From Arthrobacter sp. D5-1 (GTDB lineage Bacteria > Actinomycetota > Actinomycetes > Actinomycetales > Micrococcaceae), in NCBI RefSeq assembly GCF_017357425.1, contig NZ_CP014572.1, forward strand, positions 62,001 through 126,000: DNA of 64,000 nt, given 5' to 3'. Under the pieces are notes generated by a model. The model had not been told where the DNA came from and ran no database searches. It saw only the letters and a list, made by a program, of their open reading frames with translations. Both the position numbers and the translations under genes were made by a program. This document shows positions 14,037 to 39,377 of the stretch, in pieces. The first letter of the stretch is position 1. Every line of letters begins with the position of its first letter.

Positions 14037-14318
14037 TTTACCAGTGACCTTGCCCAGAAGCTCAGCGCCGCCAATACCAGCTACCTGAAAAAATTGAGCC
14101 TTATCAGTTTCGATGCCCGGGTCGACATGTACAAAAAAGTTCTGGGGCCGTATTTCGACATTGCCGAACAGCAAAAAGGCGCGCCGGTGGACCGGGATCT
14201 GGTCGCCTATTTCATCACCCACTACTATGCATCCATGGCACTCTACGGGGGTTATGGTAGACCCGAGGCAATAAACCTTTTGCTCAAGAAACTCATCACC
14301 GGCCTCAGCATGGTGTGA
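14037..14318 (+). pseudogene. C-terminal fragment of a TetR-type regulator
   Basis: Open reading after a stop at 14034 gives a helical sequence (LAQKLSAANTSYLKKLSLIS, then YFDIAEQQKG and ITHYYASMALYGGYGRPEAI) like the ligand-binding C-terminal half of TetR-family repressors. The DNA-binding N-terminus is missing, so this is a truncated remnant at the junction with the actinobacterial DNA. Its stop overlaps the end of atzB tail-to-tail by 14 bases, suggesting the two were original neighbours in the donor. The family call is moderately sure; loss of function is very likely. Confidence 0.55.
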
Positions 14319-15777
14319 CACCGGTGCCCCGTCGAAGGGCTGCCACCAAAGGATCGCCGTAAATCACCCGGCGAAACACCCCGTCCGCAGCCCGGGCCAG
14401 CTCCATTTCATCAAGGCCCGGAAATTCACCGTTGCGCCACACCACCTTGCCGTTGATCACGGTCATGTCCACGGGGCCGGAAAAACCCACTTTCGCGGGC
14501 AGGCTCCGTGGATCGTGGTTGGCGCCGATGTATTCGATCCGGTTCAGATCGACGGCAAAGAAATCCGCAGCCCTGCCCACGGCGAGGGCGCCGAGATCAG
14601 GCCGGTTGAGGCAATCCGCACCACCCTGGGTGGCCATGCGCAGAAAGTCATAGGGAGCTGGCACCGGATGCTGGCGCTCACTGGCCTTCAGGCACTGGAG
14701 CAGGTAGGCAAGGCGGATGCACTCGGCGAGGTTCGAGCTGTCGTTGGAGGCGTGGCCATCCACCCCAAAGCCCACCCGCACACCTGCCGCCGCCATGGCG
14801 GGAATGTCGGTGACTTCGGCACCCACCAGAAACACCGGCGCCGGGCAATGGGCAACACCGGTGCCGGTGGCGGCAAGGCGGGCGATGTCCGCTGCGGTGA
14901 ATTCCCAGCCGTGGGCGAGCCACACATCCGGCCCGACAAAGCCCCGGTTTTCGCACCAGTCGAGGCTGCGCTCGCCAAAACGGGCCACCATGGCGGGGGT
15001 TTCCCCCTCCCCCAGATGGGTGTGCAGGCTCACCCCCAGGTGGCGGGCCAGACGGGCAGACTCGACGAAGGTTTCCGGGTAGGCAATCACCGGCGAGCTG
15101 GGCGCCACCACCACCCGCTGCATGGCGAAGGGCCGCGGGTCATGAAAGCGGCTCACCAGGCGTTCGCAATCGGCAAGAAAAGTATCGGTGCTCTCCCGCA
15201 TGGCATCGGGAATGGTGCTGCCCTCCGCCATCGGCAGGGTGATGCAGCCGCGCCCGGCGTGAAAACGCAGCCCCAGCAGGTTAGCGGCATCAAACTGGCG
15301 GTCCACCAGAAAGGGTCCACCCCGGCGGCTGTAGTTGTACTGGTGATCAAACGCGGTGGTGCAGCCGTGCTTGATCAGCTCCGCCATGGACACCACTGTG
15401 CTGTGGTAGATGCAGTCTTCATCCACCAGGGCAAACACCGGGTAGATCTTGCGCAGCCAGGCCAGCACATCAAGCTGGGTCCAGTCGAGGGGGGCAAGAT
15501 TGCGGACAAAGGCCTGAAAAAAATGGTGATGGGTGTTGATCAGCCCCGGATAGGCGGTCAGCCCCCGGCAGTTCACCACCTCAACACCCTGTTCCTGGCC
15601 AACGCCAATTGGGGCCAGAGTTCGGGGCAGATCCGGGCCAAGGCCAATAATCTCCCCGTCTCTCACCAGAATATCGACGCCATTAAGCACCGTGCCCGCG
15701 ACATCCCCGGTGACCAGCTGGTGAAACCCGGTGTAAAGAGTAACGGCAGCTTTTGCAGGTGTGGCGGTGTGGCTCAT
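14305..15777 (-). CDS. atzB: Hydroxyatrazine N-ethylaminohydrolase
   Basis: 490-residue amidohydrolase that I recognise as AtzB: it removes ethylamine from hydroxyatrazine to give N-isopropylammelide. It has the metal-binding NTHHHFF (His83, His85), THLGEGE, AHGWEF and the GVDGHASND aspartate motif. The published Pseudomonas sp. ADP protein is about 481 residues; here ATG at 15777, behind GGGAGA, gives a nine-residue longer N-terminus. The gene lies in proteobacterial-type DNA beside a truncated IS1071 on its upstream side and an orphan TetR tail downstream. Its product ethylamine is the likely substrate of the adjacent amine oxidase cluster. Confidence 0.97.
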   Translation of the reverse strand: MSHTATPAKAAVTLYTGFHQLVTGDVAGTVLNGVDILVRDGEIIGLGPDLPRTLAPIGVGQEQGVEVVNCRGLTAYPGLINTHHHFFQAFVRNLAPLDWTQLDVLAWLRKIYPVFALVDEDCIYHSTVVSMAELIKHGCTTAFDHQYNYSRRGGPFLVDRQFDAANLLGLRFHAGRGCITLPMAEGSTIPDAMRESTDTFLADCERLVSRFHDPRPFAMQRVVVAPSSPVIAYPETFVESARLARHLGVSLHTHLGEGETPAMVARFGERSLDWCENRGFVGPDVWLAHGWEFTAADIARLAATGTGVAHCPAPVFLVGAEVTDIPAMAAAGVRVGFGVDGHASNDSSNLAECIRLAYLLQCLKASERQHPVPAPYDFLRMATQGGADCLNRPDLGALAVGRAADFFAVDLNRIEYIGANHDPRSLPAKVGFSGPVDMTVINGKVVWRNGEFPGLDEMELARAADGVFRRVIYGDPLVAALRRGTGVTPC

Positions 15778-17376: not shown

Positions 17377-18350
17377 GCCATGGCCAAAATGCGCAAGGTC
17401 ACCACCGTTCGCGGCTACGGTGCCTTTGTCGGCGCCAACCACCTCGAAGTGGAAGAAACCACCGGCACGGGCCAGGAGAAGACGGGCACCAAGAAGGTCA
17501 TCGCCTTCAAGCGCGCCATCATCGCCGCTGGCAGCCAGGCCGTGCGCCTGCCGTTCATGCCCAACGACCCGCGCGTGGTCGATTCCACCGGCGCGCTGGC
17601 GCTCAGCGGCGTGCCCAAACGCATGCTCATCCTGGGTGGCGGCATCATCGGCCTGGAAATGGGCACGGTGTACAGCACCCTGGGCGCACGCCTGGATGTG
17701 GTGGAGATGATGGAAGGCCTGATGCAGGGCGCCGACCGCGACCTCGTCAAGATCTGGCAAAAGATGAACGCCAAGCGCTTCGACAACATCATGTTGAAGA
17801 CGAAAACCGTCGGTGCCGAGGCCACACCTGAAGGCATCAAGGTCACATTCGCGCCAGCGGAAGAGGGCGGCACCGCCCCCGAGCCACAGGTGTACGACCT
17901 GGTGCTGCAGGCCGTGGGCCGCACGCCCAACGGCAAAAAGATCGCTGCTGAAAAGGCTGGCGTGGCCGTCACGGACCGTGGCTTCATCAACGTCGATATC
18001 CAGATGCGCACCAACGTGCCGCACATCTTTGCCATCGGCGACATCGTGGGCCAGCCCATGCTGGCGCACAAGGCGGTGCATGAGGCACACGTGGCGGCAG
18101 AAGTGATTGCCGGTGAACTGCAAGGCAACAAAGAGCTGGCAAGCGCCGCCTTCAACGCCCGCGTGATCCCAAGCGTGGCCTACACCGACCCTGAAGTGGC
18201 TTGGGTGGGCCTGACGGAAGACCAGGCCAAGGCCCAAGGCATCAAGGTCAAGAAGGGCCTGTTCCCCTGGACGGCCTCGGGCCGCGCCATTGCCAACGGC
18301 CGCGACGAAGGCTTCACCAAGCTGCTGTTCGACGACAGCCCCGAAGCAGC
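17377..18350 (+). pseudogene. lpdA: Dihydrolipoamide dehydrogenase fragment
   Basis: Reads as the middle and most of the C-terminal part of an E3 dihydrolipoamide dehydrogenase: the NAD-binding ILGGGIIGLEMG, the second FAD segment FAIGDIVGQPMLAHKA and the dimer interface VAYTDPEVAWVGLTE. The N-terminal FAD fold and the redox-active disulfide are missing, cut off exactly at the IS1071 end. After ...LLFDDSPEA it passes in frame into a transposase fragment. The sequence style is betaproteobacterial. It is a scar of IS1071 insertion, not a working enzyme. Confidence 0.85.
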
Positions 18351-19263
18351 GACCCCTCGAATCTCATCGCCGGGTGTCATCTTTCACGCGGCCACCGGCA
18401 TCGATGCGGCTACCGTGGCCCCAGTGCAGACCACACTGCAAAAACGCATCCTGCGCGCCTTCGTTGCTCGGGGCCTGCTGGAGAACTGTGACGCCAAAGA
18501 CATGCTGGGCTACAAACACAGCGGCTTCTCGGTGGACGCCGGTGTCTGCATCGAAGCCCACGACCGCGCTGCGCTGGAGCGGCTGCTGCGCTATTGCGCG
18601 CGTCCACCGTTTTCCATGGAGCGCCTACGCAAAGAGGGAAGCAAACTGGTGTACCGCTGTGCCAAACAGCGCAGCGAGCCCACCAGTGACAAGCGTGGTG
18701 CCAAGGCAGATGAGCTGCACCTCACACCGCTGGAACTGATCGACCGCATCGCCGCGCTGGTGCCACCGCCACGCACCCACCGGCACCGCTACTTTGGTGT
18801 GCTGGCACCAAACTCGCCGCTGAGAGCGGCGGTAACGGCGCTGGCTCAGCCTGCTGCGTCGCAACCAGCCACGGTGGAGACTGCACAACCTGGCGCGGGC
18901 GTACCTGGGGTGGCGGCGCCGGGCAACGCGGCCACACCCACACCCGAACCTGAAGCACGCCCGAAGCGAGCGGCGCATTACTTGTGGGCGGTGCTGATTG
19001 CCCGCATCTACGAGGCATTTCCGCTGCTGTGCCCCATGTGCGGTGGGCAGATGCGCATCATTGCCTTCATCACCCACAGCGCCGAAATCCGCCACATCCT
19101 GAACCACATCGGGGTGGAGTCTGCCCCCCCGCACATCACCCCGGCACGCGGGCCACCGCTGTGGGAGGGCTGCGACGCGCCGGTGGATGATGGTGCGCAA
19201 GGCGAGCCGGATTGGGATCTGGCAGCTCAACCCGACGAGGTAGACCAGCGCGTCAATTGGTGA
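18351..19263 (+). pseudogene. IS91-family transposase, C-terminal fragment (ISPps1/ISCR-like)
   Basis: About 300 residues typical of the C-terminus of IS91/ISCR-type transposases: LQKRILRAFVARGLLE, the LTPLELIDRIAALVPPPRTH segment and a CPMCGGQMR zinc-ribbon-like pair. The N-terminal HUH nuclease region is absent. It is fused in frame to the dihydrolipoamide dehydrogenase remnant, so the whole 17380-19263 reading of 627 codons is chimeric. IS91-type elements (ISPps1) are known near atz genes in Pseudomonas sp. ADP. The gap 19264-19462 has no gene. Confidence 0.75.
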
Positions 19264-19994: not shown

Positions 19995-20856
19995 ATGGGA
20001 AAAAGTATTGTCATACCTTGTTGATTTGATAAAAAATGGGTACCACCTCGTGTTAACTCATGGGAACGGCCCACAGGTAGGTAATATTTTAATTAAAAAT
20101 GAACTAAGCAAATCAATTGTACCGGCTATGCCTCTAGATGTTTGTGTTTCTAATACCCAAGGTTCCTTAGGTTATGCCATTCAACAGGAGCTGACAAATG
20201 TATTAGTAAAAGATAAAGCCCAGATACCGGTAGTTACAGTAGTTACAAGGGTCAAGGTAGATATAGCTGATCCTGCCTTTCAAAATCCCACAAAGCCGGT
20301 TGGACCTTTCTACAGTGAAAATGAAGCAAAAAACATTACTGCGGAAAAAGGTTATGTAATGATAGAAGACAGTGGGCGTGGATGGCGGCGGGTAGTTCCC
20401 TCACCCCTTCCATTAGAAATTTTGGAGAAAGAGGCGATCCATTATTTGTTGGAAGGAGGAACAGTAGTTATTGCCGCCGGAGGAGGGGGAATTCCCGTTT
20501 ACCTAGATGACAATGGGAACTATACGGGGGTTGAAGCAGTTATTGACAAAGACTTAGCCGGCCAACAACTAGCCAGGGACGTAGGAGCTGAAACCTTTGT
20601 AATACTTACAGGGGTGAGTCATGTCGCAATTAACTATGGAAAGGAGTCACAAAAGGAACTAGATACGATTACAGTCAGCGAAGGGCGTAGGTATCAACAA
20701 GAGGGCCACTTTCCGCCAGGCAGCATGGGACCAAAAATGGAAGCAGCTTTATTGTTTGTTGAAAACGGAGGCCATAAAGTCGATTATTACCTCTCCGGAA
20801 TAAATTGGACGGGCCTTAAAAGGGGAAGCTGGTACGATTATTATTCCCGAACCTAA
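19995..20856 (+). pseudogene. Carbamate kinase with an N-terminal deletion
   Basis: The true start appears to be ATG at 19995 (MGKSIVI), but the expected ALGGN nucleotide-binding loop and about 25 following residues are absent. The reading then shifts frame near 20010 into YLVDLIKNGYHLVLTHGNGP and continues intact to 20856. Later conserved parts are present: GNGPQVGN, FYSENEA and VIAAGGGGIPVY. An internal deletion of roughly 80-100 bp explains this. The family makes ATP from carbamoyl phosphate; this copy should be inactive. AT-rich codon use matches atzC next door. Confidence 0.8.
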
Positions 20857-20926
20857 AAAGTTAGTTTAAATCTACCAAAAAGAAGGCTCGAAGTTACAAG
20901 TCCTAGTTTAAAAAATGAGGATAAAA

Positions 20927-22150
20927 ATGAGTAAAGATTTTGATTTAATCATTAGAAACGCCTATCTAAGTGAAAAAGACAGTGTATATGATATTGGGAT
21001 TGTTGGTGACAGAATAATCAAAATAGAAGCTAAAATTGAAGGAACCGTAAAAGACGAAATTGATGCAAAGGGTAACCTTGTGTCTCCCGGATTTGTCGAT
21101 GCACATACCCATATGGATAAGTCATTTACGAGCACAGGTGAAAGATTACCGAAGTTTTGGAGCAGACCTTATACAAGGGATGCTGCCATCGATGCTGCCA
21201 TCGAGGATGGCTTGAAATATTATAAAAATGCTACCCACGAAGAAATAAAAAGACATGTGATAGAACATGCTCACATGCAGGTACTCCATGGGACTTTATA
21301 CACCCGGACCCATGTAGATGTAGATTCAGTTGCTAAAACAAAAGCAGTGGAAGCAGTTTTAGAAGCCAAGGAAGAGTTAAAGGATCTTATCGATATACAA
21401 GTCGTAGCCTTTGCACAGAGTGGATTTTTCGTTGATTTGGAATCTGAATCATTGATTAGAAAATCCTTGGATATGGGCTGTGATTTAGTTGGGGGAGTTG
21501 ATCCTGCTACGCGGGAAAATAATGTTGAGGGTTCTTTAGACCTATGCTTTAAATTAGCAAAGGAATACGATGTTGATATCGACTATCACATACATGATAT
21601 TGGAACTGTTGGAGTATATTCGATAAATCGTCTTGCCCAAAAGACAATTGAAAATGGGTATAAGGGTAGAGTAACTACGAGTCATGCCTGGTGTTTTGCA
21701 GATGCTCCGTCCGAATGGCTCGATGAGGCAATCCCATTGTACAAGGATTCGGGTATGAAATTTGTTACCTGTTTTAGTAGTACACCGCCTACTATGCCGG
21801 TGATAAAGCTGCTTGAAGCTGGCATCAATCTTGGCTGTGCTTCGGACAATATCAGAGATTTTTGGGTTCCCTTTGGCAACGGTGATATGGTACAAGGGGC
21901 TCTGATCGAAACTCAGAGATTAGAGTTAAAGACAAACAGAGATTTGGGACTAATTTGGAAAATGATAACGTCAGAGGGTGCTAGAGTTTTAGGAATTGAA
22001 AAGAACTATGGGATAGAAGTTGGTAAAAAGGCCGATCTTGTTGTATTAAATTCGTTGTCACCACAATGGGCAATAATCGACCAAGCAAAAAGACTATGCG
22101 TAATTAAAAATGGACGTATCATTGTGAAGGATGAGGTTATAGTTGCCTAA
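20927..22150 (+). CDS. atzC: N-isopropylammelide isopropylaminohydrolase
   Basis: 407-residue amidohydrolase recognised as AtzC: it converts N-isopropylammelide to cyanuric acid and isopropylamine. Metal-binding motifs DAHTHMDKS (His60, His62), YHIHDIG and the ASDNIRDFW aspartate are present. ATG at 20927 is chosen because GAGGA lies just upstream and the known protein starts MSKDFDLIIRN. The reference protein is 403 residues. The four extra residues match an exact 12-bp tandem duplication at 21179-21202 (residues 85-92). The gene is AT-rich, unlike the plasmid around it, and follows broken DUF1116 and carbamate kinase genes from the same donor. Confidence 0.96.
   Translation: MSKDFDLIIRNAYLSEKDSVYDIGIVGDRIIKIEAKIEGTVKDEIDAKGNLVSPGFVDAHTHMDKSFTSTGERLPKFWSRPYTRDAAIDAAIEDGLKYYKNATHEEIKRHVIEHAHMQVLHGTLYTRTHVDVDSVAKTKAVEAVLEAKEELKDLIDIQVVAFAQSGFFVDLESESLIRKSLDMGCDLVGGVDPATRENNVEGSLDLCFKLAKEYDVDIDYHIHDIGTVGVYSINRLAQKTIENGYKGRVTTSHAWCFADAPSEWLDEAIPLYKDSGMKFVTCFSSTPPTMPVIKLLEAGINLGCASDNIRDFWVPFGNGDMVQGALIETQRLELKTNRDLGLIWKMITSEGARVLGIEKNYGIEVGKKADLVVLNSLSPQWAIIDQAKRLCVIKNGRIIVKDEVIVA
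21179..21202 (+). repeat. Exact 12-bp tandem duplication inside atzC
   Basis: GATGCTGCCATC occurs twice head-to-tail, coding DAAI-DAAI (residues 85-92). It is in frame and adds four residues to a surface-looking stretch after the metal-binding HTH motif. Confidence 0.9.
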
Positions 22151-22175
22151 TAGATGCTTTTTTTGGAGCGGCACC

Positions 22176-23671
22176 CTAAGGATGGTCTGCACGAATCACT
22201 TTTGACCGTGCAGCGCCGCCCGCGGCCGCGCCTCCACCGGCAGATGCCGCCGCTGCGCCCGTGCCGCCACCGGCCGCAGCGGGGGATGCCGCCGCTGCGC
22301 CCGTGCCGCCACCCGCGGCGCTAGAGGCCTGCGCGGCTTGCGGGGCAGACTGACCGCCGCCGTTCGCTCCCGACGGGCCAGTGGAGCCCGTAGAGCCCGG
22401 CGAGCCGGTCGAGCCCGAACCGCCGGATGAGCCGCCGCCGGAACCGGTCGCCAGGCGACCCATCGAGGCCGCGCCTGTGGGGAGGGCGGCGAGAGCGGCC
22501 ACGCCGAGAGCGCCGCCGGCACCGGCCGACATGGCCCCCACGAGAGGGGTCACGAACCGCATCAGGGCGGGCATCGCGAACAGCGCGAGCACCATCAGGA
22601 TCAGGCCCGTGAGAACGGCGATGAAGCCGGTCCCGTCGTCCTGGAACACGTTCGTTCCCGCGAGCTGGAACGCCGCGGCGTAGACGATCGCGGCGGCGGG
22701 CTTGTAGAGGATGAACGCCACGAGCCACCCGACGTTCTTCTTGAACCAGCCCTTACCCATTTCGGTGTTGGTGGCCGCCGCGGACAGCGGGAGGATGCCG
22801 TCAGGATGACGAGCATGCCGCCGCGCGCGATCATCAGCACGATTTGGAAGGCCGTCGCGAGGATCGCGATCAGCCCCAGGATGATGATGAGCAGAGCGCC
22901 GAGGCCACCCGTCGCCGGGTTCGTCGTCAGGGCGAGCAGGGTCGCGATGTTGTTGCCGAAGCACGCCGTATCCGTGCCGACGTCGCAGTTCAGCGCCCCG
23001 TTGAGAATCCACACGGAGAACGAGTCGAACGCCGACACGAGCAGCCCGACGATAGTCACGCCGGCACCCGCCACGACGATCAGAGTCAACAGACTCTTGA
23101 CCGTCTCCTTGCCGGGCTCGGCGCGCTGTTCCCACGCCATCCGAACGCCGCCGATGATGACGGACACGACGGCGGCCGCGCCCATGTACCACCACAGCGA
23201 CGACTGCAGAAACAGCACGGCACCGCCCGCGCCCTGCGGCCCGTTCGGGAGCAGACCAGACACCAGCGCGGTCGCGCCGCTGATGAGGAAGATCGCACCG
23301 AGCACGATCCCCAGTCGGCCCGCGGCCTGGAAGCCCTCACCGCTGCGCATCCGCGTAGCGATGAGAGCACCGAGGAGGATGATCGAGATAGCCGCGAGCA
23401 CGATCGCAATCCAGGTCACCCAGCCGAGCACCTGAATGATGCCGTCAGAGTTCGGAGCGGTCGCACCCGCAGCGATCGACGAGCCACCGCCCGTCCCGGT
23501 CAGGTTCGGCGTGCCGACGTTCACCCAGAGCGTGCCGAGCGAGGCGACAGCCTTCCCGAACGCTTCCATGACGGCATCCGCCATGTTCTGGATGGCATCG
23601 CCGACGACACTGTTTGCCCACTCGCCGGCCTTGCAGCCGAAGTCGAGCGGCGCACATTCACTCGCGGCCAT
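22176..23671 (-). pseudogene. TrbL/VirB6-like conjugation membrane protein, frameshifted (copy 1)
   Basis: Starts MAASECAPLDFGCKAGEWAN at 23671 behind GGAGGGG, with several membrane segments, then a Gly/Ser/Pro/Ala-rich C-terminal tail (GSTGSPGSTGSTGPSG). This layout is typical of polytopic TrbL-type proteins of actinobacterial type IV secretion regions. Near 22800 the frame breaks: MLVILT should run on into GILPLSAAATN, which now lies in another frame, as if one base were missing. It is either a pseudogene or a sequencing error; the second copy lacks this region so cannot decide. The part from 23066 on is duplicated at 34736. Confidence 0.7.
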
Positions 23672-23674
23672 GTT

Positions 23675-24430
23675 CTACCCCTCCGTCCAGCTCACATAAC
23701 CCGAGAGGTCCGGCAACTCAGCGAGGCGTGCAGGCTCAGGGTTCGAGGCGTCGAGCTTCCAGTCCCCGTCCGCCCAGACGAGTTCGAGAACGGCGGAGCC
23801 GTTGACGCTCTGGCCGTTGCTGCTGCCGCGGAACGCGATGTCGACACGAGCGGACTCGCCGTCGTACGCGAGCATGCGAAAGCCGGCGATAGATGCCCGC
23901 ACGTCGGATGGCGCAGCCGCTCCCTGAGCGTTGAGCAGGGTGTCACGGTACGGGCCATCCGTCAGGGCGTACTCGAGAAATGCCTGTCGCTGCTCGGCGG
24001 GTCCGAAACCGATGATCGTCACGTTCGCGGCTGCGAACAGTGCACCCTCAGGCGAGTGCTGGAAGCAGTACGGGTAGCCCTCTGGGGCCGTGTCCCCCGG
24101 CCCCGCCGTGGAAGAGGTCGGGAAGGCGTAGACGTCCTGGAACCGCCATTCGGCGGCGGGAGCTGTCGTCACCGTCCCGGATAGCTCCTCGCCCGCCAGG
24201 CCACAAACGCTCGCGCCGCCCGCGACCCCGGAAGGCTCCGGGGAAGGGGCGGCGCTGCTTGTGGCACTGGACGACGGGTCGGGAGCCGGCGGCGCGGCGT
24301 CGTCGTCTCGGTTCAGGTTGAGAACCGTCAGAACGATGCCCGCCACGATGAGCGCGACCACCACGACCGCCCCGACGATGAAGCCGGGGCGCGTGAACGG
24401 GTTCTGCTGCGTGTCGTCGTCCTCAGCCAT
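23675..24430 (-). CDS. Single-pass membrane protein of the conjugation module (copy 1)
   Basis: 251 residues: a short cytoplasmic N-terminus, one membrane segment (FIVGAVVVVALIVAGIVLTV), then an extracytoplasmic domain after a Pro/Ser/Ala-rich linker. The soluble part ends with a compact fold (VLELVWADGDWKLDASN) like the NTF2-like or VirB8-type domains of actinobacterial conjugation proteins. ATG at 24430 is chosen for GAGAGGAG upstream. Stop and the next gene start are four bases apart, so it is co-transcribed with the TrbL-like gene. Family assignment is tentative. Confidence 0.7.
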   Translation of the reverse strand: MAEDDDTQQNPFTRPGFIVGAVVVVALIVAGIVLTVLNLNRDDDAAPPAPDPSSSATSSAAPSPEPSGVAGGASVCGLAGEELSGTVTTAPAAEWRFQDVYAFPTSSTAGPGDTAPEGYPYCFQHSPEGALFAAANVTIIGFGPAEQRQAFLEYALTDGPYRDTLLNAQGAAAPSDVRASIAGFRMLAYDGESARVDIAFRGSSNGQSVNGSAVLELVWADGDWKLDASNPEPARLAELPDLSGYVSWTEG

Positions 24431-24441
24431 GACGGCTCCTC

Positions 24442-24744
24442 TCAGGCCCCGGCGAGGATGCCGACGAGAGCGGCACCACCACCGATCACGATCGCTCCGG
24501 CCATCGGCCAAAGGATCTTCGGCAGAGCATCGTGACCCTCACCGCGGCGGAAGCTGACGGCGATGAGGATGCCGCCGACGATGATCGCGCCGCCGACGAC
24601 GACGTAGCCGATCCACTTCAGCCAGGACAGGATGATGGTCACGCCTTCGGTGCCCGGAGGCTGTACGGGGTCCGGGTCAGGAATGACGCCGGCGAGGTTC
24701 ACGGCGGTGTCGGCCGCCGCGTGGAACACGTCGATAACGGACAT
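24442..24744 (-). CDS. Small two-helix membrane protein, TrbC/VirB2-like (copy 1)
   Basis: 100 residues with two hydrophobic helices (YVVVGGAIIVGGILIAV and AGAIVIGGGAALVGILAGA) separated by a short basic loop, and an N-terminal stretch that could be a cleaved leader. This is the shape of pilin-like TrbC/VirB2 subunits of type IV secretion systems. ATG at 24744 has AAAGG upstream; the longer reading to 24873 is unlikely. It lies in a tight minus-strand run of four genes with the TrbL-like protein at the end. Confidence 0.7.
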   Translation of the reverse strand: MSVIDVFHAAADTAVNLAGVIPDPDPVQPPGTEGVTIILSWLKWIGYVVVGGAIIVGGILIAVSFRRGEGHDALPKILWPMAGAIVIGGGAALVGILAGA

Positions 24745-24755
24745 GCTGTTGCCTT

Positions 24756-25364
24756 TCAGTTCGAGGTGCCGGCGGCACCGAGGATTGCGGTCAGCTCGTC
24801 GACGAGACGCTGAGCTTCGCGCGGAGAAGATGAGAGAGCCGGCGGCTCTCCCACGCGCCATGCATCGACCCACGGCACCGACCAGGTGCGCGGGACTCCC
24901 CCGCTGACGACCTGCATCAGGTCGCGCAACGAGCGAGGCAGTCGACCAGGTGCGTCAGCCATGACGACCAGGCCCAAGACTTCAACAGACGGGACGAGGC
25001 CCGCGGCCCACTGCCGCATCGCGGCCTGCGCCGCGCGCAACCCGCGAGCGTCTGAGCGGGCGACGAGAACCGTCCGTGCGGGCGTCGTGGAGGCGGTGCG
25101 CGGCCACGAGTGGCCCGCCGCCTGCGAGCCCGGCATCAGCGCCGCCAGCGTGGACTCTCCCGCGCCGCCGTGTGCGCCTACCCACCACAGCGCAGCCGTG
25201 GTGTTGCGGTCGTAGATCGGCAGCTGGTCGACGCGATCCGGTGCGGGGATTCCTCGCTGCGGAGCCACCGGGCCGAACGTGTCGGGCACGGCCGCGATCG
25301 GGGCCGCCTCGGTAGGCGGCGGCGTCGTCGGCCGAGAAAGCCACGGGTTGAGCGGGTCGCTCAT
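24756..25364 (-). CDS. DUF6668-like protein with degenerate P-loop (copy 1)
   Basis: 202 residues. The segment WWVGAHGGAGESTLAALMPG looks like a Walker A loop of a ParA-like fold but has Glu where the lysine should be, so ATP hydrolysis is doubtful. The N-terminus is proline-rich. Proteins of this kind (DUF6668) occur with actinobacterial conjugation genes. ATG at 25364 follows GGGGGG. It is the first gene of the minus-strand transfer operon and faces a divergent plus-strand operon across a 153-base intergenic region. Confidence 0.7.
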   Translation of the reverse strand: MSDPLNPWLSRPTTPPPTEAAPIAAVPDTFGPVAPQRGIPAPDRVDQLPIYDRNTTAALWWVGAHGGAGESTLAALMPGSQAAGHSWPRTASTTPARTVLVARSDARGLRAAQAAMRQWAAGLVPSVEVLGLVVMADAPGRLPRSLRDLMQVVSGGVPRTWSVPWVDAWRVGEPPALSSSPREAQRLVDELTAILGAAGTSN

Positions 25365-25517
25365 GTTGCCCCCCTAGGTACAGTGAGATTCACCCTAATA
25401 AGGGAATCCTACGCCCAAGCGCCCAAACAAGGAAGGGTGAACCCGAATGAACCCGAACCTATACAAACATGCCCTAACCGGTACACTAGGACCGTGGAGC
25501 CAACAGGAGGTCTCACC
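25365..25517. promoter_or_regulatory. Divergent promoter region with repeated motifs (copy 1)
   Basis: Separates the minus-strand transfer operon from the plus-strand HTH operon. Contains an inverted pair TTCACCCT / AGGGTGAA about 35 bases apart and a direct repeat TGAACCCGAA, which could bind the adjacent HTH protein. A possible plus-strand -10 TACACT lies at 25482-25487; no good -35 is visible. The same region recurs at 37035-37187. Confidence 0.4.
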
Positions 25518-25793
25518 GTGAGCAGCGACAGCGGTGCGTGTGACGCGCTCGATCGCCTATTCGAGCAGAGCCCTCCGACCCTCGGCCCCACCGAAGTAGC
25601 AGAACGACTCGGAGTCTCTAACAAGAGCGTGTACACGTGGCTCCGCGAGGGACTGATCCCCGGCTACAAGGTCGGCTCGACGTGGTTCATCATCCGCGAC
25701 GAGCTGAAAGACACCTTGCGCCGGGGTGCGAATGTCCCTCGCGACACCGGCCCGGTCGTCGTCATCAACTCAGAACGGCACGAAGGGGACTGA
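25518..25793 (+). CDS. Helix-turn-helix (excisionase/MerR-like) DNA-binding protein (copy 1)
   Basis: 91 residues with one winged-helix domain of the excisionase type: LGPTEVAERLGVSNKSVYTW followed by LREGLIPGYKVGSTWFI. GTG at 25518 is chosen because AGGAGG lies seven bases upstream; the long in-frame extension upstream is basic shadow sequence across the promoter. The lipoprotein gene starts one base after its stop. It likely regulates this small operon or the divergent transfer operon (inference). Confidence 0.8.
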   Translation: MSSDSGACDALDRLFEQSPPTLGPTEVAERLGVSNKSVYTWLREGLIPGYKVGSTWFIIRDELKDTLRRGANVPRDTGPVVVINSERHEGD

Positions 25794-25794
25794 C

Positions 25795-26334
25795 ATGCGG
25801 AAGATCGGGACGGCGCTACTCATAGTCGTCACCGCGGCGGCCCTGACCGCCTGCACCGGCCAGAACAACGCGCCAGCGCCGACCCCCAGCGCCAGTAGCA
25901 CCGGCCCGATCTATCCCGACCTCGACCAGTTCACCCCCGCCCCCGAAGGCCTCATCGACGAGGACAGCGGAGAGACGCACGGCCCGCGGCCCGTGCCCAC
26001 GTGGGATGACGAATCGCGCGAGAGCGCAACGGCGGCCGCGGTCGCCGTGATGACCGCCTACGCGCGCCCCGATCTTCCGTTCGAGCAGTGGTGGGCCGGC
26101 TTGCAGCCCCTCCTCGACAACAAGGCCACCCAGGACTACGCCTACATGGACCCGGCACGCATCGTCGCGACGAGCGTCACCGGCCCCGCCGTCATCACCG
26201 ACGACACGAGCGCTTACGTCGCGTTCGTCGACGTCCCCACCAACGCCGGCACCTACGGCGTCGTGCTCAGCCGTGCCGACGCTGACTCCCCCTGGCTCGC
26301 GGGGCGCTTCATCCTCCCCGAAGGGGTGAACTGA
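25795..26334 (+). CDS. Putative lipoprotein of the transfer module (copy 1)
   Basis: 179 residues with a lipoprotein signal (MRKIGTALLIVVTAAALTAC), so it should be anchored to the outer face of the membrane through Cys20. A Pro/Ser-rich linker follows and then a small domain without recognised catalytic residues. The stop codon overlaps the start of the next gene (TGATG), indicating coupled translation with a peptidoglycan-acting protein. Role probably in assembly of the transfer apparatus; no specific function is known. Confidence 0.75.
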   Translation: MRKIGTALLIVVTAAALTACTGQNNAPAPTPSASSTGPIYPDLDQFTPAPEGLIDEDSGETHGPRPVPTWDDESRESATAAAVAVMTAYARPDLPFEQWWAGLQPLLDNKATQDYAYMDPARIVATSVTGPAVITDDTSAYVAFVDVPTNAGTYGVVLSRADADSPWLAGRFILPEGVN

Positions 26335-27130
26335 TGGCAGCGCCCAAGGGCAGCGCCGCCTACGCGATCGCGGCGGTGCCGCTCCTCATCGTCGGCTCCC
26401 TGTTCGGGCTCCTCCTCATGGGCGAGGACGAGTGCGGCCCGAGCGCCGGCAACGGCGGATCGAGCGTCTCGATCGACCCCGCATCCGTCCCCGAGACGGA
26501 GATTGCCGGCTACGGCCACGAGCAGCTTGTGAACGCCGCATATGTCATGCAGGCGGGCAAAGACCTCGGCCTGAACGCGCGGGATCAGACCATCGGCGTC
26601 ATGACTGCGATGGGTGAATCCAGCCTCCGGAACATCGACTACGGCGACTGGGAAACCGGCGGGGTCACCAACCCCGACGGCACCCGCACGACGTCGATCG
26701 GCCTGTTCCAGCAGCAGGACGGATGGGGCACCCGCGAGGAGCGGCTGGACCCCTACATCTCGTCGACGAAGTTCTTCAACGCGATGACCACGAAGGTTCC
26801 CGACCGCGAGTCGCTGGAACCGACGATCGTCGCCCACCGCACTCAGGTGAACGCCGACCCGTACCACTACACGAAGTTCTGGGACGGCGCGGTGCAGATC
26901 GTCGAGGGCCTGAGTGGTGTCCGCACCGGCCTCGACTCCGGCGACGGCAGCGCCAGCGGCGGCGCATGCGAGGGCCTGCTTCCCGGCGAAGTCAGCGCCG
27001 AAGGCTGGGCCTCCCCCGGCGCCGGCCCGGTCAGCAGCCCCTACGGCATCCGCGTGCACCCGATCTACGGCACGCAGCGACTCCACGCCGGCACCGACCT
27101 TGCCGGCGGCGGCTGCGACGGCCCGATCTG
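26334..27130 (+). pseudogene. Lysozyme-like/M23 peptidase cell-wall protein, truncated (copy 1)
   Basis: N-terminal membrane segment (IAAVPLLIVGSLFGLLLMG), then a lysozyme-like domain (MTAMGESSLRNIDYG, SIGLFQQQDGWG), then the start of an M23 metallopeptidase domain (SSPYGIRVHPIYGTQRLHAG, continuing TDLA, giving the HxxxD zinc motif). After GGGCDGPI, near 27130, it runs into reversed integrase DNA, so the second zinc motif (HxH) is lost. Intact relatives open the cell wall for conjugation. In-frame readthrough would continue to 27413 with junk sequence. The same truncation exists in the second copy. Confidence 0.8.
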
Positions 27131-27379
27131 CTTCTGGGTGCGTAGGTCCGCCGAGAACTCCTCGACAAGCGCGGGCGTCCAGTTCCACGGGTCTTCGTTG
27201 ACGTGGCTGATGAAGCGCTCGACCATCCGGAGCCGTTGGTCGATGGTCGCGAACTGCAGGTTGCGTGACAGCTGCTGGTTCCGCCAGCCCTCGAGCATCT
27301 TCTGGAGCACCTGCTCGTCGGGCCGGAGGACCGGCACCGACTCGACCAGGCGGACCCGTCCGGAGCCATCAACCTGCAT
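27131..27379 (-). pseudogene. Tyrosine recombinase N-terminal fragment (copy 1)
   Basis: ATG at 27379 follows GGAGGA and gives about 83 residues (QQLSRNLQFATIDQRLRMVE, then FISHVNEDPWNW) of the SAM-like core-binding domain of tyrosine recombinases. The catalytic domain is cut off at the junction with the M23 gene near 27130. This type belongs to integrases of recombinase-triad (RIT/Tn554-like) elements common in actinobacteria. The element end would lie just to the right, at the edge of the duplicated block. 27380-27802 holds no other gene. Confidence 0.7.
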
Positions 27380-27802
27380 CAAATCCTCCCGAGAATCCGG
27401 TTTCATCCAGTGATTCCATGATGCATCTGATGAGACGCCATCTGTGTTTGCGCAGGTCAACGGCGTGTCGCGGTGGCCGCGCAACGCCTGATCGTTCCGC
27501 CGCCACACACGGTTTGACGCCGTTACGACGACGTTCGGTGCTGCGTTTCCGCTGGTCAGAGCTGGGTTAAGTACGGCCAGCGGGGCAGTGAGTCAGCCGC
27601 CCGCGATTGATTCATCCGATGCAATACGCAGACTAGTACCTTACATAAGCATTGTTATCGGCGGTCAATCGGGACGAGTCGAAGCAGATGAGAGAGCCCG
27701 TCCCATGGAGTCGGTGACCCGCGACCTCCCCGTAGCACTCACACACACGCGCCCCCAGATCGCCGAATTCGCGCGGGCCAACAGCAACTACAGTTCGGCG
27801 GC

Positions 27803-33152: not shown

Positions 33153-34535
33153 CTACAAGTTCTTGGGAATGAGTGCTGTCGTATTCGCGACGATGCGTTC
33201 GAGATCTGCCAGAACGGGTCGTTCGTTCTCGACGAGCACCTGACCATTCACGACCACCAGGCTTGCCCGGTCTGAAAGACCAGTCATGATCAGGCCGATC
33301 GCCGGGTCGTGCACACCAACCCGGTCGACTCCATCGAGGCGCCAACAGGCGATGTCCGCAGCACGACCCTCCTCGAGGACGCCCAGGTCGGGCCTGCCGA
33401 GGCACTCCGCTGATCCCCTGGTTGCCATTCGGAGCAGCTCGCGTGCCGACAGCCACTTCTCGGGCTCGTTGGGGTCAGCGGGGCGGTGCGCCAGCGCAGC
33501 CAGGCGCAGATCGCCAAGCAGGTTCCCGCCATCGTTGCTGGCGGACCCGGTCGTTCCAAACCCAACCGTGATTCCGGCGTCGAGGTATTCCCGGATAGGC
33601 GCGAGTCCCCAGCCCAACCGAAGGTCCGGCGCAATGAGATGCGCGATCGCGACGCCTGCGTCGGCGAACTCGGGGATCTCCTCCCGTGGAGGTACCACAG
33701 CGTGAGCCAGCCATACTCGGTCGCTGGCCCAGCCGTGCTTCTCAAGGAAACGCCACGGCGTCATACCGTAGAGGTGGTCGCTCATTCCCGCGTCGAGCGG
33801 TTCGTAGAAGTGGGTGTGGAGGCGCACGTCGTAGTCCGCCGCCATCTGTGCGAACGCTTCGAAGAGTTCGGGCTTGTCGTAGGGGACGCCGCAGGGTCCA
33901 AGAGCGATTCGAACCATTCCAAACGGTTCCGGCTCGTGGTACTGGTCGATGAGACCCAGACAGTGCTGGACGACTCTGTCGACGGGCTCGACGAACAGGT
34001 CGTCGCAGAAGCCACCTTCGCTCTTGCCGAGCGTCATCGATGACCTTGCCGCATGGAACCGGATCCCGAGGTCGGTGGCGGCCTCGATGGTTGCGTCGAT
34101 ATAGCTATCGACATAGCTATCGGCCGTGGCACCGGGGAAGAATGGGTGCTGGTCGGCGACCGTGGTGATGCCACCGAGGAGCGACTGGAGGAGGACGGCG
34201 CGCGCAACCTCCCGGATGACATCTGGACCGAACTTCCCGTCGCGCCACCATCCTGTGCTTCTGGTCAGGACGCCTTCGAGCCAACTGGCCATCGTGACCC
34301 GCTCGAGTTGGGGAATCGCCCGCATTGCGCCTTCGAACAGGTGCTGGTGCGAGTTGATGAGACCTGGCAGCGCAATCATTCCACGCCCGTCGATTGTCCG
34401 TGAAACGCTGCGATCCGACAGGTCCTTTCCGACGGCGACGATCTTCGGCCCGTCGATCAGAATGTCGGCGTCTTCCAACTCGCGTTCTTGATCGTCGAAA
34501 GTGATGACACGTGTCAGTCCGCGGATCAGGATCAT
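33153..34535 (-). CDS. trzN: Triazine hydrolase (atrazine chlorohydrolase)
   Basis: 460-residue amidohydrolase recognised as TrzN, which hydrolyses atrazine and other s-triazines (chloride, methylthio, methoxy leaving groups) to the hydroxy form using zinc. Zinc ligands lie in NSHQH (His63, His65), LHTHFYE and AHAVVPP; the GFGTTGSASND stretch has the threonine found where related enzymes have aspartate. ATG at 34535 follows GAAGGAGAG. Known TrzN is about 456 residues; the four extra fit a 12-bp near-perfect tandem duplication (residues 138-145). The frame is also open upstream into an ABC ATPase stub. It starts the pathway continued by AtzB and AtzC. Confidence 0.97.
   Translation of the reverse strand: MILIRGLTRVITFDDQERELEDADILIDGPKIVAVGKDLSDRSVSRTIDGRGMIALPGLINSHQHLFEGAMRAIPQLERVTMASWLEGVLTRSTGWWRDGKFGPDVIREVARAVLLQSLLGGITTVADQHPFFPGATADSYVDSYIDATIEAATDLGIRFHAARSSMTLGKSEGGFCDDLFVEPVDRVVQHCLGLIDQYHEPEPFGMVRIALGPCGVPYDKPELFEAFAQMAADYDVRLHTHFYEPLDAGMSDHLYGMTPWRFLEKHGWASDRVWLAHAVVPPREEIPEFADAGVAIAHLIAPDLRLGWGLAPIREYLDAGITVGFGTTGSASNDGGNLLGDLRLAALAHRPADPNEPEKWLSARELLRMATRGSAECLGRPDLGVLEEGRAADIACWRLDGVDRVGVHDPAIGLIMTGLSDRASLVVVNGQVLVENERPVLADLERIVANTTALIPKNL
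34098..34121 (-). repeat. 12-bp tandem duplication inside trzN (11/12 identical)
   Basis: On the coding strand GATAGCTATGTC is followed by GATAGCTATATC, coding DSYV-DSYI (residues 138-145). It keeps the frame and adds four residues. Confidence 0.88.
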
Positions 34536-34735: not shown

Positions 34736-35341
34736 ACCCGCCACGACGATCAGAGTCAACAGACTCTTGACCGTCTCCTTGCCGGGCTCGGCGCGCTGTT
34801 CCCACGCCATCCGAACGCCGCCGATGATGACGGACACGACGGCGGCCGCGCCCATGTACCACCACAGCGACGACTGCAGAAACAGCACGGCACCGCCCGC
34901 GCCCTGCGGCCCGTTCGGGAGCAGACCAGACACCAGCGCGGTCGCGCCGCTGATGAGGAAGATCGCACCGAGCACGATCCCCAGTCGGCCCGCGGCCTGG
35001 AAGCCCTCACCGCTGCGCATCCGCGTAGCGATGAGAGCACCGAGGAGGATGATCGAGATAGCCGCGAGCACGATCGCAATCCAGGTCACCCAGCCGAGCA
35101 CCTGAATGATGCCGTCAGAGTTCGGAGCGGTCGCACCCGCAGCGATCGACGAGCCACCGCCCGTCCCGGTCAGGTTCGGCGTGCCGACGTTCACCCAGAG
35201 CGTGCCGAGCGAGGCGACAGCCTTCCCGAACGCTTCCATGACGGCATCCGCCATGTTCTGGATGGCATCGCCGACGACACTGTTTGCCCACTCGCCGGCC
35301 TTGCAGCCGAAGTCGAGCGGCGCACATTCACTCGCGGCCAT
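34736..35341 (-). pseudogene. TrbL-like protein, N-terminal part only (copy 2)
   Basis: Same first ~200 residues as copy 1, with membrane segments such as WVTWIAIVLAAISIILLGAL. The gene is cut at the left edge of the duplicated block and reads ten foreign codons to a stop at 34706. Without the C-terminal half it should not work in transfer. Confidence 0.75.
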
Positions 35342-35344
35342 GTT

Positions 35345-36100
35345 CTACCCCTCCGTCCAGCTCACATAACCCGAGAGGTCCGGCAACTCAGCGAGGCGTG
35401 CAGGCTCAGGGTTCGAGGCGTCGAGCTTCCAGTCCCCGTCCGCCCAGACGAGTTCGAGAACGGCGGAGCCGTTGACGCTCTGGCCGTTGCTGCTGCCGCG
35501 GAACGCGATGTCGACACGAGCGGACTCGCCGTCGTACGCGAGCATGCGAAAGCCGGCGATAGATGCCCGCACGTCGGATGGCGCAGCCGCTCCCTGAGCG
35601 TTGAGCAGGGTGTCACGGTACGGGCCATCCGTCAGGGCGTACTCGAGAAATGCCTGTCGCTGCTCGGCGGGTCCGAAACCGATGATCGTCACGTTCGCGG
35701 CTGCGAACAGTGCACCCTCAGGCGAGTGCTGGAAGCAGTACGGGTAGCCCTCTGGGGCCGTGTCCCCCGGCCCCGCCGTGGAAGAGGTCGGGAAGGCGTA
35801 GACGTCCTGGAACCGCCATTCGGCGGCGGGAGCTGTCGTCACCGTCCCGGATAGCTCCTCGCCCGCCAGGCCACAAACGCTCGCGCCGCCCGCGACCCCG
35901 GAAGGCTCCGGGGAAGGGGCGGCGCTGCTTGTGGCACTGGACGACGGGTCGGGAGCCGGCGGCGCGGCGTCGTCGTCTCGGTTCAGGTTGAGAACCGTCA
36001 GAACGATGCCCGCCACGATGAGCGCGACCACCACGACCGCCCCGACGATGAAGCCGGGGCGCGTGAACGGGTTCTGCTGCGTGTCGTCGTCCTCAGCCAT
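35345..36100 (-). CDS. Single-pass membrane protein of the conjugation module (copy 2)
   Basis: Identical in protein sequence to the gene at 23675: N-terminal anchor, Pro/Ser/Ala linker and an extracytoplasmic domain of about 150 residues. ATG at 36100 with GAGAGGAG upstream. Being a perfect second copy, it shows the duplication is recent or kept identical by gene conversion. Confidence 0.7.
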   Translation of the reverse strand: MAEDDDTQQNPFTRPGFIVGAVVVVALIVAGIVLTVLNLNRDDDAAPPAPDPSSSATSSAAPSPEPSGVAGGASVCGLAGEELSGTVTTAPAAEWRFQDVYAFPTSSTAGPGDTAPEGYPYCFQHSPEGALFAAANVTIIGFGPAEQRQAFLEYALTDGPYRDTLLNAQGAAAPSDVRASIAGFRMLAYDGESARVDIAFRGSSNGQSVNGSAVLELVWADGDWKLDASNPEPARLAELPDLSGYVSWTEG

Positions 36101-36111
36101 GACGGCTCCTC

Positions 36112-36414
36112 TCAGGCCCCGGCGAGGATGCCGACGAGAGCGGCACCACCACCGATCACGATCGCTCCGGCCATCGGCCAAAGGATCTTCGGCAGAGCAT
36201 CGTGACCCTCACCGCGGCGGAAGCTGACGGCGATGAGGATGCCGCCGACGATGATCGCGCCGCCGACGACGACGTAGCCGATCCACTTCAGCCAGGACAG
36301 GATGATGGTCACGCCTTCGGTGCCCGGAGGCTGTACGGGGTCCGGGTCAGGAATGACGCCGGCGAGGTTCACGGCGGTGTCGGCCGCCGCGTGGAACACG
36401 TCGATAACGGACAT
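36112..36414 (-). CDS. TrbC/VirB2-like small membrane protein (copy 2)
   Basis: Identical to the 100-residue two-helix protein at 24442. Same ATG context (AAAGG upstream of 36414) and same position in a four-gene minus-strand run. Confidence 0.7.
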   Translation of the reverse strand: MSVIDVFHAAADTAVNLAGVIPDPDPVQPPGTEGVTIILSWLKWIGYVVVGGAIIVGGILIAVSFRRGEGHDALPKILWPMAGAIVIGGGAALVGILAGA

Positions 36415-36425
36415 GCTGTTGCCTT

Positions 36426-37034
36426 TCAGTTCGAGGTGCCGGCGGCACCGAGGATTGCGGTCAGCTCGTCGACGAGACGCTGAGCTTCGCGCGGAGAAGA
36501 TGAGAGAGCCGGCGGCTCTCCCACGCGCCATGCATCGACCCACGGCACCGACCAGGTGCGCGGGACTCCCCCGCTGACGACCTGCATCAGGTCGCGCAAC
36601 GAGCGAGGCAGTCGACCAGGTGCGTCAGCCATGACGACCAGGCCCAAGACTTCAACAGACGGGACGAGGCCCGCGGCCCACTGCCGCATCGCGGCCTGCG
36701 CCGCGCGCAACCCGCGAGCGTCTGAGCGGGCGACGAGAACCGTCCGTGCGGGCGTCGTGGAGGCGGTGCGCGGCCACGAGTGGCCCGCCGCCTGCGAGCC
36801 CGGCATCAGCGCCGCCAGCGTGGACTCTCCCGCGCCGCCGTGTGCGCCTACCCACCACAGCGCAGCCGTGGTGTTGCGGTCGTAGATCGGCAGCTGGTCG
36901 ACGCGATCCGGTGCGGGGATTCCTCGCTGCGGAGCCACCGGGCCGAACGTGTCGGGCACGGCCGCGATCGGGGCCGCCTCGGTAGGCGGCGGCGTCGTCG
37001 GCCGAGAAAGCCACGGGTTGAGCGGGTCGCTCAT
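36426..37034 (-). CDS. DUF6668-like protein with degenerate P-loop (copy 2)
   Basis: Identical to the 202-residue protein at 24756, including the altered loop GAHGGAGEST. ATG at 37034 follows GGGGGG. The promoter region upstream (37035-37187) is also a copy. Confidence 0.7.
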   Translation of the reverse strand: MSDPLNPWLSRPTTPPPTEAAPIAAVPDTFGPVAPQRGIPAPDRVDQLPIYDRNTTAALWWVGAHGGAGESTLAALMPGSQAAGHSWPRTASTTPARTVLVARSDARGLRAAQAAMRQWAAGLVPSVEVLGLVVMADAPGRLPRSLRDLMQVVSGGVPRTWSVPWVDAWRVGEPPALSSSPREAQRLVDELTAILGAAGTSN

Positions 37035-37187
37035 GTTGCCCCCCTAGGTACAGTGAGATTCACCCTAATAAGGGAATCCTACGCCCAAGCGCCCAAACAA
37101 GGAAGGGTGAACCCGAATGAACCCGAACCTATACAAACATGCCCTAACCGGTACACTAGGACCGTGGAGCCAACAGGAGGTCTCACC

Positions 37188-37463
37188 GTGAGCAGCGACA
37201 GCGGTGCGTGTGACGCGCTCGATCGCCTATTCGAGCAGAGCCCTCCGACCCTCGGCCCCACCGAAGTAGCAGAACGACTCGGAGTCTCTAACAAGAGCGT
37301 GTACACGTGGCTCCGCGAGGGACTGATCCCCGGCTACAAGGTCGGCTCGACGTGGTTCATCATCCGCGACGAGCTGAAAGACACCTTGCGCCGGGGTGCG
37401 AATGTCCCTCGCGACACCGGCCCGGTCGTCGTCATCAACTCAGAACGGCACGAAGGGGACTGA
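37188..37463 (+). CDS. Excisionase/MerR-like HTH protein (copy 2)
   Basis: Identical to the 91-residue HTH protein at 25518; GTG start at 37188 with AGGAGG upstream. Two identical copies of a regulator could raise its dosage if both are expressed. Confidence 0.8.
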   Translation: MSSDSGACDALDRLFEQSPPTLGPTEVAERLGVSNKSVYTWLREGLIPGYKVGSTWFIIRDELKDTLRRGANVPRDTGPVVVINSERHEGD

Positions 37464-37464
37464 C

Positions 37465-38004
37465 ATGCGGAAGATCGGGACGGCGCTACTCATAGTCGTC
37501 ACCGCGGCGGCCCTGACCGCCTGCACCGGCCAGAACAACGCGCCAGCGCCGACCCCCAGCGCCAGTAGCACCGGCCCGATCTATCCCGACCTCGACCAGT
37601 TCACCCCCGCCCCCGAAGGCCTCATCGACGAGGACAGCGGAGAGACGCACGGCCCGCGGCCCGTGCCCACGTGGGATGACGAATCGCGCGAGAGCGCAAC
37701 GGCGGCCGCGGTCGCCGTGATGACCGCCTACGCGCGCCCCGATCTTCCGTTCGAGCAGTGGTGGGCCGGCTTGCAGCCCCTCCTCGACAACAAGGCCACC
37801 CAGGACTACGCCTACATGGACCCGGCACGCATCGTCGCGACGAGCGTCACCGGCCCCGCCGTCATCACCGACGACACGAGCGCTTACGTCGCGTTCGTCG
37901 ACGTCCCCACCAACGCCGGCACCTACGGCGTCGTGCTCAGCCGTGCCGACGCTGACTCCCCCTGGCTCGCGGGGCGCTTCATCCTCCCCGAAGGGGTGAA
38001 CTGA
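37465..38004 (+). CDS. Putative lipoprotein of the transfer module (copy 2)
   Basis: Identical to the lipoprotein at 25795 (signal ending LTAC). Coupled by TGATG overlap to the downstream cell-wall protein gene. Confidence 0.75.
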   Translation: MRKIGTALLIVVTAAALTACTGQNNAPAPTPSASSTGPIYPDLDQFTPAPEGLIDEDSGETHGPRPVPTWDDESRESATAAAVAVMTAYARPDLPFEQWWAGLQPLLDNKATQDYAYMDPARIVATSVTGPAVITDDTSAYVAFVDVPTNAGTYGVVLSRADADSPWLAGRFILPEGVN

Positions 38005-38800
38005 TGGCAGCGCCCAAGGGCAGCGCCGCCTACGCGATCGCGGCGGTGCCGCTCCTCATCGTCGGCTCCCTGTTCGGGCTCCTCCTCATGGGCGAGGACG
38101 AGTGCGGCCCGAGCGCCGGCAACGGCGGATCGAGCGTCTCGATCGACCCCGCATCCGTCCCCGAGACGGAGATTGCCGGCTACGGCCACGAGCAGCTTGT
38201 GAACGCCGCATATGTCATGCAGGCGGGCAAAGACCTCGGCCTGAACGCGCGGGATCAGACCATCGGCGTCATGACTGCGATGGGTGAATCCAGCCTCCGG
38301 AACATCGACTACGGCGACTGGGAAACCGGCGGGGTCACCAACCCCGACGGCACCCGCACGACGTCGATCGGCCTGTTCCAGCAGCAGGACGGATGGGGCA
38401 CCCGCGAGGAGCGGCTGGACCCCTACATCTCGTCGACGAAGTTCTTCAACGCGATGACCACGAAGGTTCCCGACCGCGAGTCGCTGGAACCGACGATCGT
38501 CGCCCACCGCACTCAGGTGAACGCCGACCCGTACCACTACACGAAGTTCTGGGACGGCGCGGTGCAGATCGTCGAGGGCCTGAGTGGTGTCCGCACCGGC
38601 CTCGACTCCGGCGACGGCAGCGCCAGCGGCGGCGCATGCGAGGGCCTGCTTCCCGGCGAAGTCAGCGCCGAAGGCTGGGCCTCCCCCGGCGCCGGCCCGG
38701 TCAGCAGCCCCTACGGCATCCGCGTGCACCCGATCTACGGCACGCAGCGACTCCACGCCGGCACCGACCTTGCCGGCGGCGGCTGCGACGGCCCGATCTG
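38004..38800 (+). pseudogene. Lysozyme-like/M23 cell-wall protein, truncated (copy 2)
   Basis: Identical to copy 1 at 26334, with the same truncation after GGGCDGPI. Since both copies share the break, the integrase fusion happened before the block was duplicated. Confidence 0.8.
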
Positions 38801-39049
38801 CTTCTGGGTGCGTAGGTCCGCCGAGAACTCCTCGACAAGCGCGGGCGTCCAGTTCCACGGGTCTTCGTTGACGTGGCTGATGAAGCGCTCGACCATCCGG
38901 AGCCGTTGGTCGATGGTCGCGAACTGCAGGTTGCGTGACAGCTGCTGGTTCCGCCAGCCCTCGAGCATCTTCTGGAGCACCTGCTCGTCGGGCCGGAGGA
39001 CCGGCACCGACTCGACCAGGCGGACCCGTCCGGAGCCATCAACCTGCAT
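38801..39049 (-). pseudogene. Tyrosine recombinase N-terminal fragment (copy 2)
   Basis: Same ~83-residue SAM-like integrase N-terminus as copy 1; ATG at 39049 follows GGAGGA. Only 260 bases separate its start from the right edge of the block, as expected when a recombinase gene sits at the end of its own element. Confidence 0.7.
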
Positions 39050-39307: not shown

Positions 39308-39377
39308 AGTTGACATAATATTTATTATCGGCCTCTGAACAACGGGAGCAGAAGTAGCTGCGGGAAGCTCCCGTCCA
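39308..39377. repeat. Dispersed recombination-site-like repeat A
   Basis: Starts GTTGACATAATATTTATTAT and continues CGGC..., then GGGAGCAGAAGTAGCTGC. About three quarters of positions match 52209-52277 at the same spacing, and the right edge of the duplicated block falls exactly at its start. Possible target or end of a tyrosine-recombinase element. Confidence 0.5.

Follow-up and report, generated by a model that had tools for sequence, protein, structure and literature searches.

The closest described relatives of the locus analyzed here are the atrazine-degrading enzymes of Pseudomonas sp. ADP and Paenarthrobacter aurescens TC1. AtzC of Pseudomonas sp. ADP (403 amino acids; WP_011117177.1; structures 2qt3 and 4cqb) has a single D-A-A-I unit in a segment that, in the part of the structural report available to us, lines the active site: Tyr82, Arg84, and Ile88 belong to it, and residues 79 to 97 shift by up to 4.3 Å between crystal structures (PMC4577212). 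AtzC of P. aurescens TC1 (ABM10519.1; WP_011776997.1 in other records) has 407 amino acids. In chemostats, according to the excerpt consulted, >99% of the atrazine was converted by strain TC1 into cyanuric acid, and proteomics provided a measurement of its AtzC (AAur_pTC10212) (PMC6776027). The same strain is the source of the characterized triazine hydrolase TrzN (456 amino acids; 3ls9), a Zn enzyme with an amidohydrolase fold. A 2004 paper on the TC1 genes is said to have reported their function in Escherichia coli.

We analyzed 64,000 nucleotides of Arthrobacter sp. D5-1 (NZ_CP014572.1, positions 62,001 to 126,000; hereafter, the window), which contain atzC, atzB, and trzN (Table 1). Read from its ATG at position 20927, atzC encodes 407 amino acids, and the mechanically called open reading frame starts 4 codons earlier (411 amino acids). 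The 12-bp unit GATGCTGCCATC occurs twice head to tail within the gene, giving D85-A-A-I-D-A-A-I92, and nowhere else in the window (mean of 0.00 in 100 shuffled sequences). Tandem Repeats Finder placed the repeat at 21179-21204 (period, 12; match, 100%). Once units of smaller period were excluded, an 800-kb sample of this chromosome contained no exact 12-bp tandem pair. A preliminary description of this DNA had proposed an exact in-frame 12-bp duplication in atzC and a length of 407 rather than 403 residues; the repeat count, Tandem Repeats Finder, and the translation confirmed the former, and the alignment with Pseudomonas ADP AtzC (2qt3), which has four residues fewer at this site, agreed with the latter. 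The atzC duplication is real.

Table 1. Coordinates of the features discussed in the text (window numbering)
Feature	Position	Strand	Remarks
atzB, third gene of the same pathway	14305..15777	-	Identical to TC1; no duplication
Carbamate-kinase-like gene (arcC) remnant, upstream of atzC	20008..20856	+	Broken in the window
Shine-Dalgarno region of atzC	20910..20926	+	T at 20916 in the 407 haplotype; G in pADP-1
atzC, N-isopropylammelide isopropylaminohydrolase, 407-amino-acid form	20927..22150	+	Translation; 403-amino-acid AtzC structures match over the full length; Pfam Amidohydro_3 and Amidohydro_1
atzC 12-bp unit, copy 1 (D85-A86-A87-I88)	21179..21190	+	
atzC 12-bp unit, copy 2 (D89-A90-A91-I92)	21191..21202	+	
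Inverted repeat GCCATC-GAG-GATGGC at the 3' end of the 12-bp unit	21197..21211	+	Also in the single-unit allele; proposed slippage hairpin (putative role)
trzN, triazine hydrolase, 460-amino-acid form	33153..34535	-	Translation; TrzN structures match over the full length
trzN near-exact 12-bp tandem pair (D139-S-Y-V142, D143-S-Y-I146)	34098..34121	-	Absent from TC1 trzN

Outside the insertion, residues 1 to 407 of the window's AtzC are identical to residues 1 to 403 of 2qt3, and the coding DNA is likewise the same as that of Pseudomonas sp. ADP. The zinc ligands (His60, His62, His217, and Asp303 in ADP numbering) and the catalytic His249 are present as H60, H62, H221, D307, and H253 (407 numbering); among 43 sequences, H60, H221, and H253 were invariant, and H62 and D307 were nearly so. 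The 407-residue form is predicted to adopt the fold of the solved AtzC. The insertion, i.e., the duplicated D85 to I88, lies inside the mobile loop-helix (79-97), the native spacing of which is not kept. An AlphaFold2 model of the 407-residue form, although such models judge insertions of four residues poorly, had a mean pLDDT of 95.6, with a helix at 84-101 and a block at 81-90 scoring 72. Because every residue of the 4cqb crystal structure aligned to this model (402/402; 0.6 Å), the insertion is predicted to be absorbed locally.

Homologs of AtzC provided a second view of this segment. Of the 1,039 relatives found, 120 were listed and 55 aligned; one fragment stopped short of the site, leaving 54. 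At least four extra residues were present just upstream in the same loop in 15 of these 54. Given these longer loops, the active-site segment appears to vary in length by nature, so the insertion may have no effect, and native loop-helix spacing would not be a defining feature of the AtzC family. Since the TC1 gene is the duplicated form, the chemostat data in the excerpt cited above show a working pathway with the 407-residue allele in TC1, as evidence at the level of the strain and not as a measurement of the enzyme itself; the 407-residue AtzC as such is probably active. A literature search with most subscription journals outside its coverage retrieved no paper linking atzC with a 12-bp duplication, and a broader search returned unrelated papers, with no atzC among the matches listed.

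Near-identical atzC genes were found in eight plasmid records, and all eight coding sequences equaled that of the window apart from the 12 bp. Five have two units (P. aurescens TC1 pTC1, Paenarthrobacter ureafaciens AT and DnL1-1, Paenarthrobacter sp. AT5, and Agrobacterium leguminum AT13), and three have one (Pseudomonas ADP pADP-1, Pseudomonas EGD-AKN5, and Aminobacter SR38). All four Paenarthrobacter plasmid records examined are of the two-unit type. The same 12 bp is also present in one further genome (G005), the coordinates of which suggest TC1 again. The 407-residue protein has its own RefSeq entry (WP_011776997.1), and the atzC DNA of TC1 is identical to that of the window, duplication included. 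The 407-residue allele is therefore already deposited and known as a sequence, and it is not private to Arthrobacter sp. D5-1. This overturns the implication of the preliminary description that the duplication is a peculiarity of this strain (5/8 plasmid records carry it, that of pTC1 among them). The same account held that an eight-residue form in reference AtzC would speak against it; such a form exists in the TC1-type reference and not in the ADP reference. Its reading of the atzC and trzN duplications as a whole was partly supported.

Genome collections, the scans of which may omit the window's own record, were searched for further hosts of the alleles. At strict E-value limits, AtzC and TrzN were each detected in 2 of 206 genomes of the genus (the window's own and G005). 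Again at strict limits, TrzN among 394 genomes of the class and AtzC among 396 genomes of the phylum were detected only in the own genome. One scan of genome contigs gave five loci at 32 to 35% identity and no near copy, and the plasmid collection, to which the same caveat on the own record applies, gave a single near match for trzN (TC1). The phage collection contained no match to atzC, and phage carriage of the gene was dropped as a candidate.

The shared records bear on two alternative accounts of the atzC duplication. An assembly or database artefact, in which the records might share one error through copied annotation, is scarcely credible; the same 12 bp is shared by five other public records (separate plasmid entries, with hosts and places that differ) and by the G005 genome, and on the strength of these five records the artefact was dropped for atzC. 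As for direction, slippage can shorten a 12-bp tandem as well as lengthen it, so that the 407-residue form might be ancestral and the ADP type might have lost one unit. The relatives make this very improbable: 53 of the 54 covering the site lack the four residues, including the nearest other relative (P0006; 85% identity), and an ancestral 407-residue form was dropped on this alignment. The sole exception represents a cluster of 27 sequences and is itself a 407-residue protein, with A87S. Because 53/54 relatives are without the four residues, we take the duplicated form of atzC to be derived.

The flanking sequence points the same way. Over 20015-22210, three single bases besides the 12 bp separate the 407 haplotype from pADP-1 (20801, 20883, and 20916), all upstream of the atzC start and one of them in the Shine-Dalgarno region. 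The T at 20801 is an early stop in the carbamate-kinase-like gene (297 versus 319 residues). The T at 20916 changes AAGGAGGA to AATGAGGA and creates an in-frame ATG 4 codons upstream of atzC. The changes at 20801 and 20916 fit a haplotype that is probably derived. Because base 20916 alters the Shine-Dalgarno region on the haplotype that carries the insertion, any change in expression of the 407 haplotype would be confounded with the effect of the insertion. Relative to TC1, the window's carbamate-kinase-like gene lacks 86 bp (at about 20015/20016) and has gained 1 bp at 20776, an insertion that is the window's own. Further upstream (17380-19263), one open frame fuses a pyridine nucleotide-disulphide oxidoreductase part (Pyr_redox_2) to an IS91-type transposase part (Y2_Tnp).

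The two copies of the atzC unit are adjacent and exact, and a single-copy sister allele that is otherwise identical exists, as for a duplication born by slippage. In the single-unit gene, the unit is overlapped by a hairpin with a 6-bp stem. Of the 1,173 40-base windows of that gene, 2 on the plus strand and 1 on the minus strand fold as well as the best one over the unit, itself counted. The corresponding numbers are 8 and 6 of 1,189 for 24-base windows and 18 and 13 of 1,183 for 30-base windows; at these two lengths, the hairpin is strong and not the strongest. The 2-base homology (GA) at both unit ends is ordinary, as 80 of the 824 12-bp duplications conceivable in atzC match it. Rfam at its gathering threshold gave no match in 20000-23000 around atzC, and an RNA element there was dropped as a candidate.

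We propose the following course of events. One 12-bp slippage event in the 403-residue allele would have duplicated GATGCTGCCATC without shifting the frame; the nascent strand probably paired one unit out of register at the GCCATC-GAG-GATGGC hairpin, with the GA homology at the unit ends. The product would gain a further turn of helix (D-A-A-I) where the mobile loop-helix over the AtzC active site begins. The enzyme would have remained functional, and the 407-residue allele then spread on plasmids together with its neighborhood, mostly in Paenarthrobacter. The duplication, its derived state, its spread, its being the sole difference within the gene, and its location in the active-site segment are established by the observations above. 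We consider it highly probable that slippage, a mechanism that we infer, gave rise to a 407-residue allele that still functions and was spread by plasmids. The trzN duplication arose separately and later, as a second event of this type, and slippage is the likely origin of both.

TrzN of the window matches the characterized TC1 protein in sequence and fold and is the same enzyme (452 of 453 residues of 3ls9 align to the model at 0.9 Å). It differs from TC1 TrzN by four extra residues and five substitutions (Y67F, A94T, E117Q, L131P, and M303L; TC1 numbering), with zero silent changes in the gene. The extra residues come from GATAGCTATGTC followed by GATAGCTATATC (34121 down to 34098), which agree at 11 of 12 bases, where TC1 has a single unit. 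The preliminary claim that trzN carries the same kind of change, an in-frame 12-bp duplication adding four residues, holds for a near-exact pair. The insertion was absent from all 50 aligned relatives (of 120 listed), 4 of which have other extra loop residues; the duplication was seen only in this window, and the pair rests on a single assembly. Because TC1 has the atzC duplication and lacks that of trzN, the two are separate events of different age, trzN's the later. The cluster representative P0125 has Y67F and E117Q without the duplication, which suggests that trzN changed stepwise. The 4l9x chain, whose title reads 'modified for maximum expression in E.coli', also has L131P, and the 5hmd chain has both the L131P and the M303L residues; a literature search for TrzN 'L131P', with most subscription journals outside its coverage, found no paper.

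Longer repeats are also present in the window. The trzN gene is flanked by two direct repeats of 4,597 bp (23066-27662 and 34736-39332; 99.85% identical) that lie 11,670 bp apart, and plasmid pADNL1 (locus L021) has this repeated stretch once, matching both copies. By recombining, the two copies could cause loss or amplification of trzN. An exact 853-bp direct repeat (58561-59413 and 59434-60286) lies inside a 1,031-amino-acid open frame, and a tandem pair of about 303 bp occupies 62850-63475.

Why two enzymes of one pathway should both carry a 12-bp duplication can be explained by mutation or by selection, both of which the preliminary description had raised. Under a mutational bias without selection, short quasi-palindromic units would be prone to 12-bp tandem slippage, an explanation that is possible but falls somewhat short of even chances. 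Both units have 4-base inverted ends (GATG/CATC in atzC and GATA/TATC in trzN). Among all conceivable 12-bp duplications, such ends would arise in 7 of 824 for atzC and in 10 of 966 for trzN. The 864 kb surveyed in this genome contain 15 period-12 pairs (≤1 mismatch), 13 of them in the 800 kb of chromosome and 2 in the window; of these, only the atzC and trzN pairs have 4-base ends, and one of the 13 chromosomal pairs has a 3-base inverted end. However, this feature was picked after both cases were known, the chromosomal pairs are possibly old, and inverted ends of at least 4 bases are found at other periods (period 18, 1/4 with ≤1 mismatch and 3/7 with ≤2; period 21, 1/2; period 9, 0/28). Nor is the trzN site a strong hairpin: 291 and 114 of 1,332 40-base windows fold as well, and this candidate was dropped. 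The suggestion of a shared mutational mechanism thus gained the terminal inverted repeats on both units and was weakened by a trzN site that is unexceptional as a hairpin. The palindrome bias is a lead, with support that is modest, post hoc, and partly contrary.

Selection of both duplications, refitting active-site-proximal helices of young herbicide-degrading enzymes (e.g., for easier product release in AtzC and for apoenzyme stability or folding in TrzN), seems unlikely to us. It would accord with the position of the AtzC insertion in the segment above Trp309; in the part of the structural report at hand, product departure was suggested to limit ammelide hydrolysis, and Trp309Ala nearly doubled that rate (PMC4577212). 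TrzN combines five amino acid changes and a duplication with no silent change, 5 of 6 trzN events fall within about 215 of 1,371 nucleotides (P of about 0.013, post hoc), and L131P is shared with the expression-modified 4l9x chain and L303 with 5hmd. Against this, 5/5 amino acid changes have a P value of 0.17 under neutrality (6/6 and 0.12 if the change inside the trzN duplicate is counted), atzB is unchanged relative to TC1, TrzN loop length also varies in 4/50 relatives, and the atzC allele may merely have ridden a successful plasmid. Positive selection on trzN, as judged from amino acid versus silent changes, was accordingly dropped (P = 0.17), and the parallel adaptation put forward earlier was not borne out, the excess of amino acid changes not being significant. 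The parallel between atzC and trzN holds as a description; parallel adaptation is unproven. That two successive enzymes of a pathway some decades old were both refitted by palindrome-primed 12-bp slippage adding a helical turn by the active site, AtzC first, in the allele now prevalent among Paenarthrobacter records, and then TrzN in this lineage, together with L131P, is a combination to which we give quite a low probability. If true, small tandem duplications would routinely form a second stage when new catabolic enzymes adapt.

Regardless of the cause, atzC offers a clean natural experiment: two widespread alleles that are one 4-residue insertion apart inside the gene, in a segment lining the active site. 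The newer trzN insertion, together with L131P, opens to experiment the question of whether a new enzyme settles in more readily with a short tandem duplication. A comparable situation is found in the KPC beta-lactamases, enzymes under recent strong selection in which, in the portion of the report consulted, in-frame indels and duplications affect loops close to the active site (PMC13321812). In the same portion, the loop changes of KPC are tied to an altered resistance phenotype (PMC13321812), which sets them apart from the AtzC and TrzN insertions.
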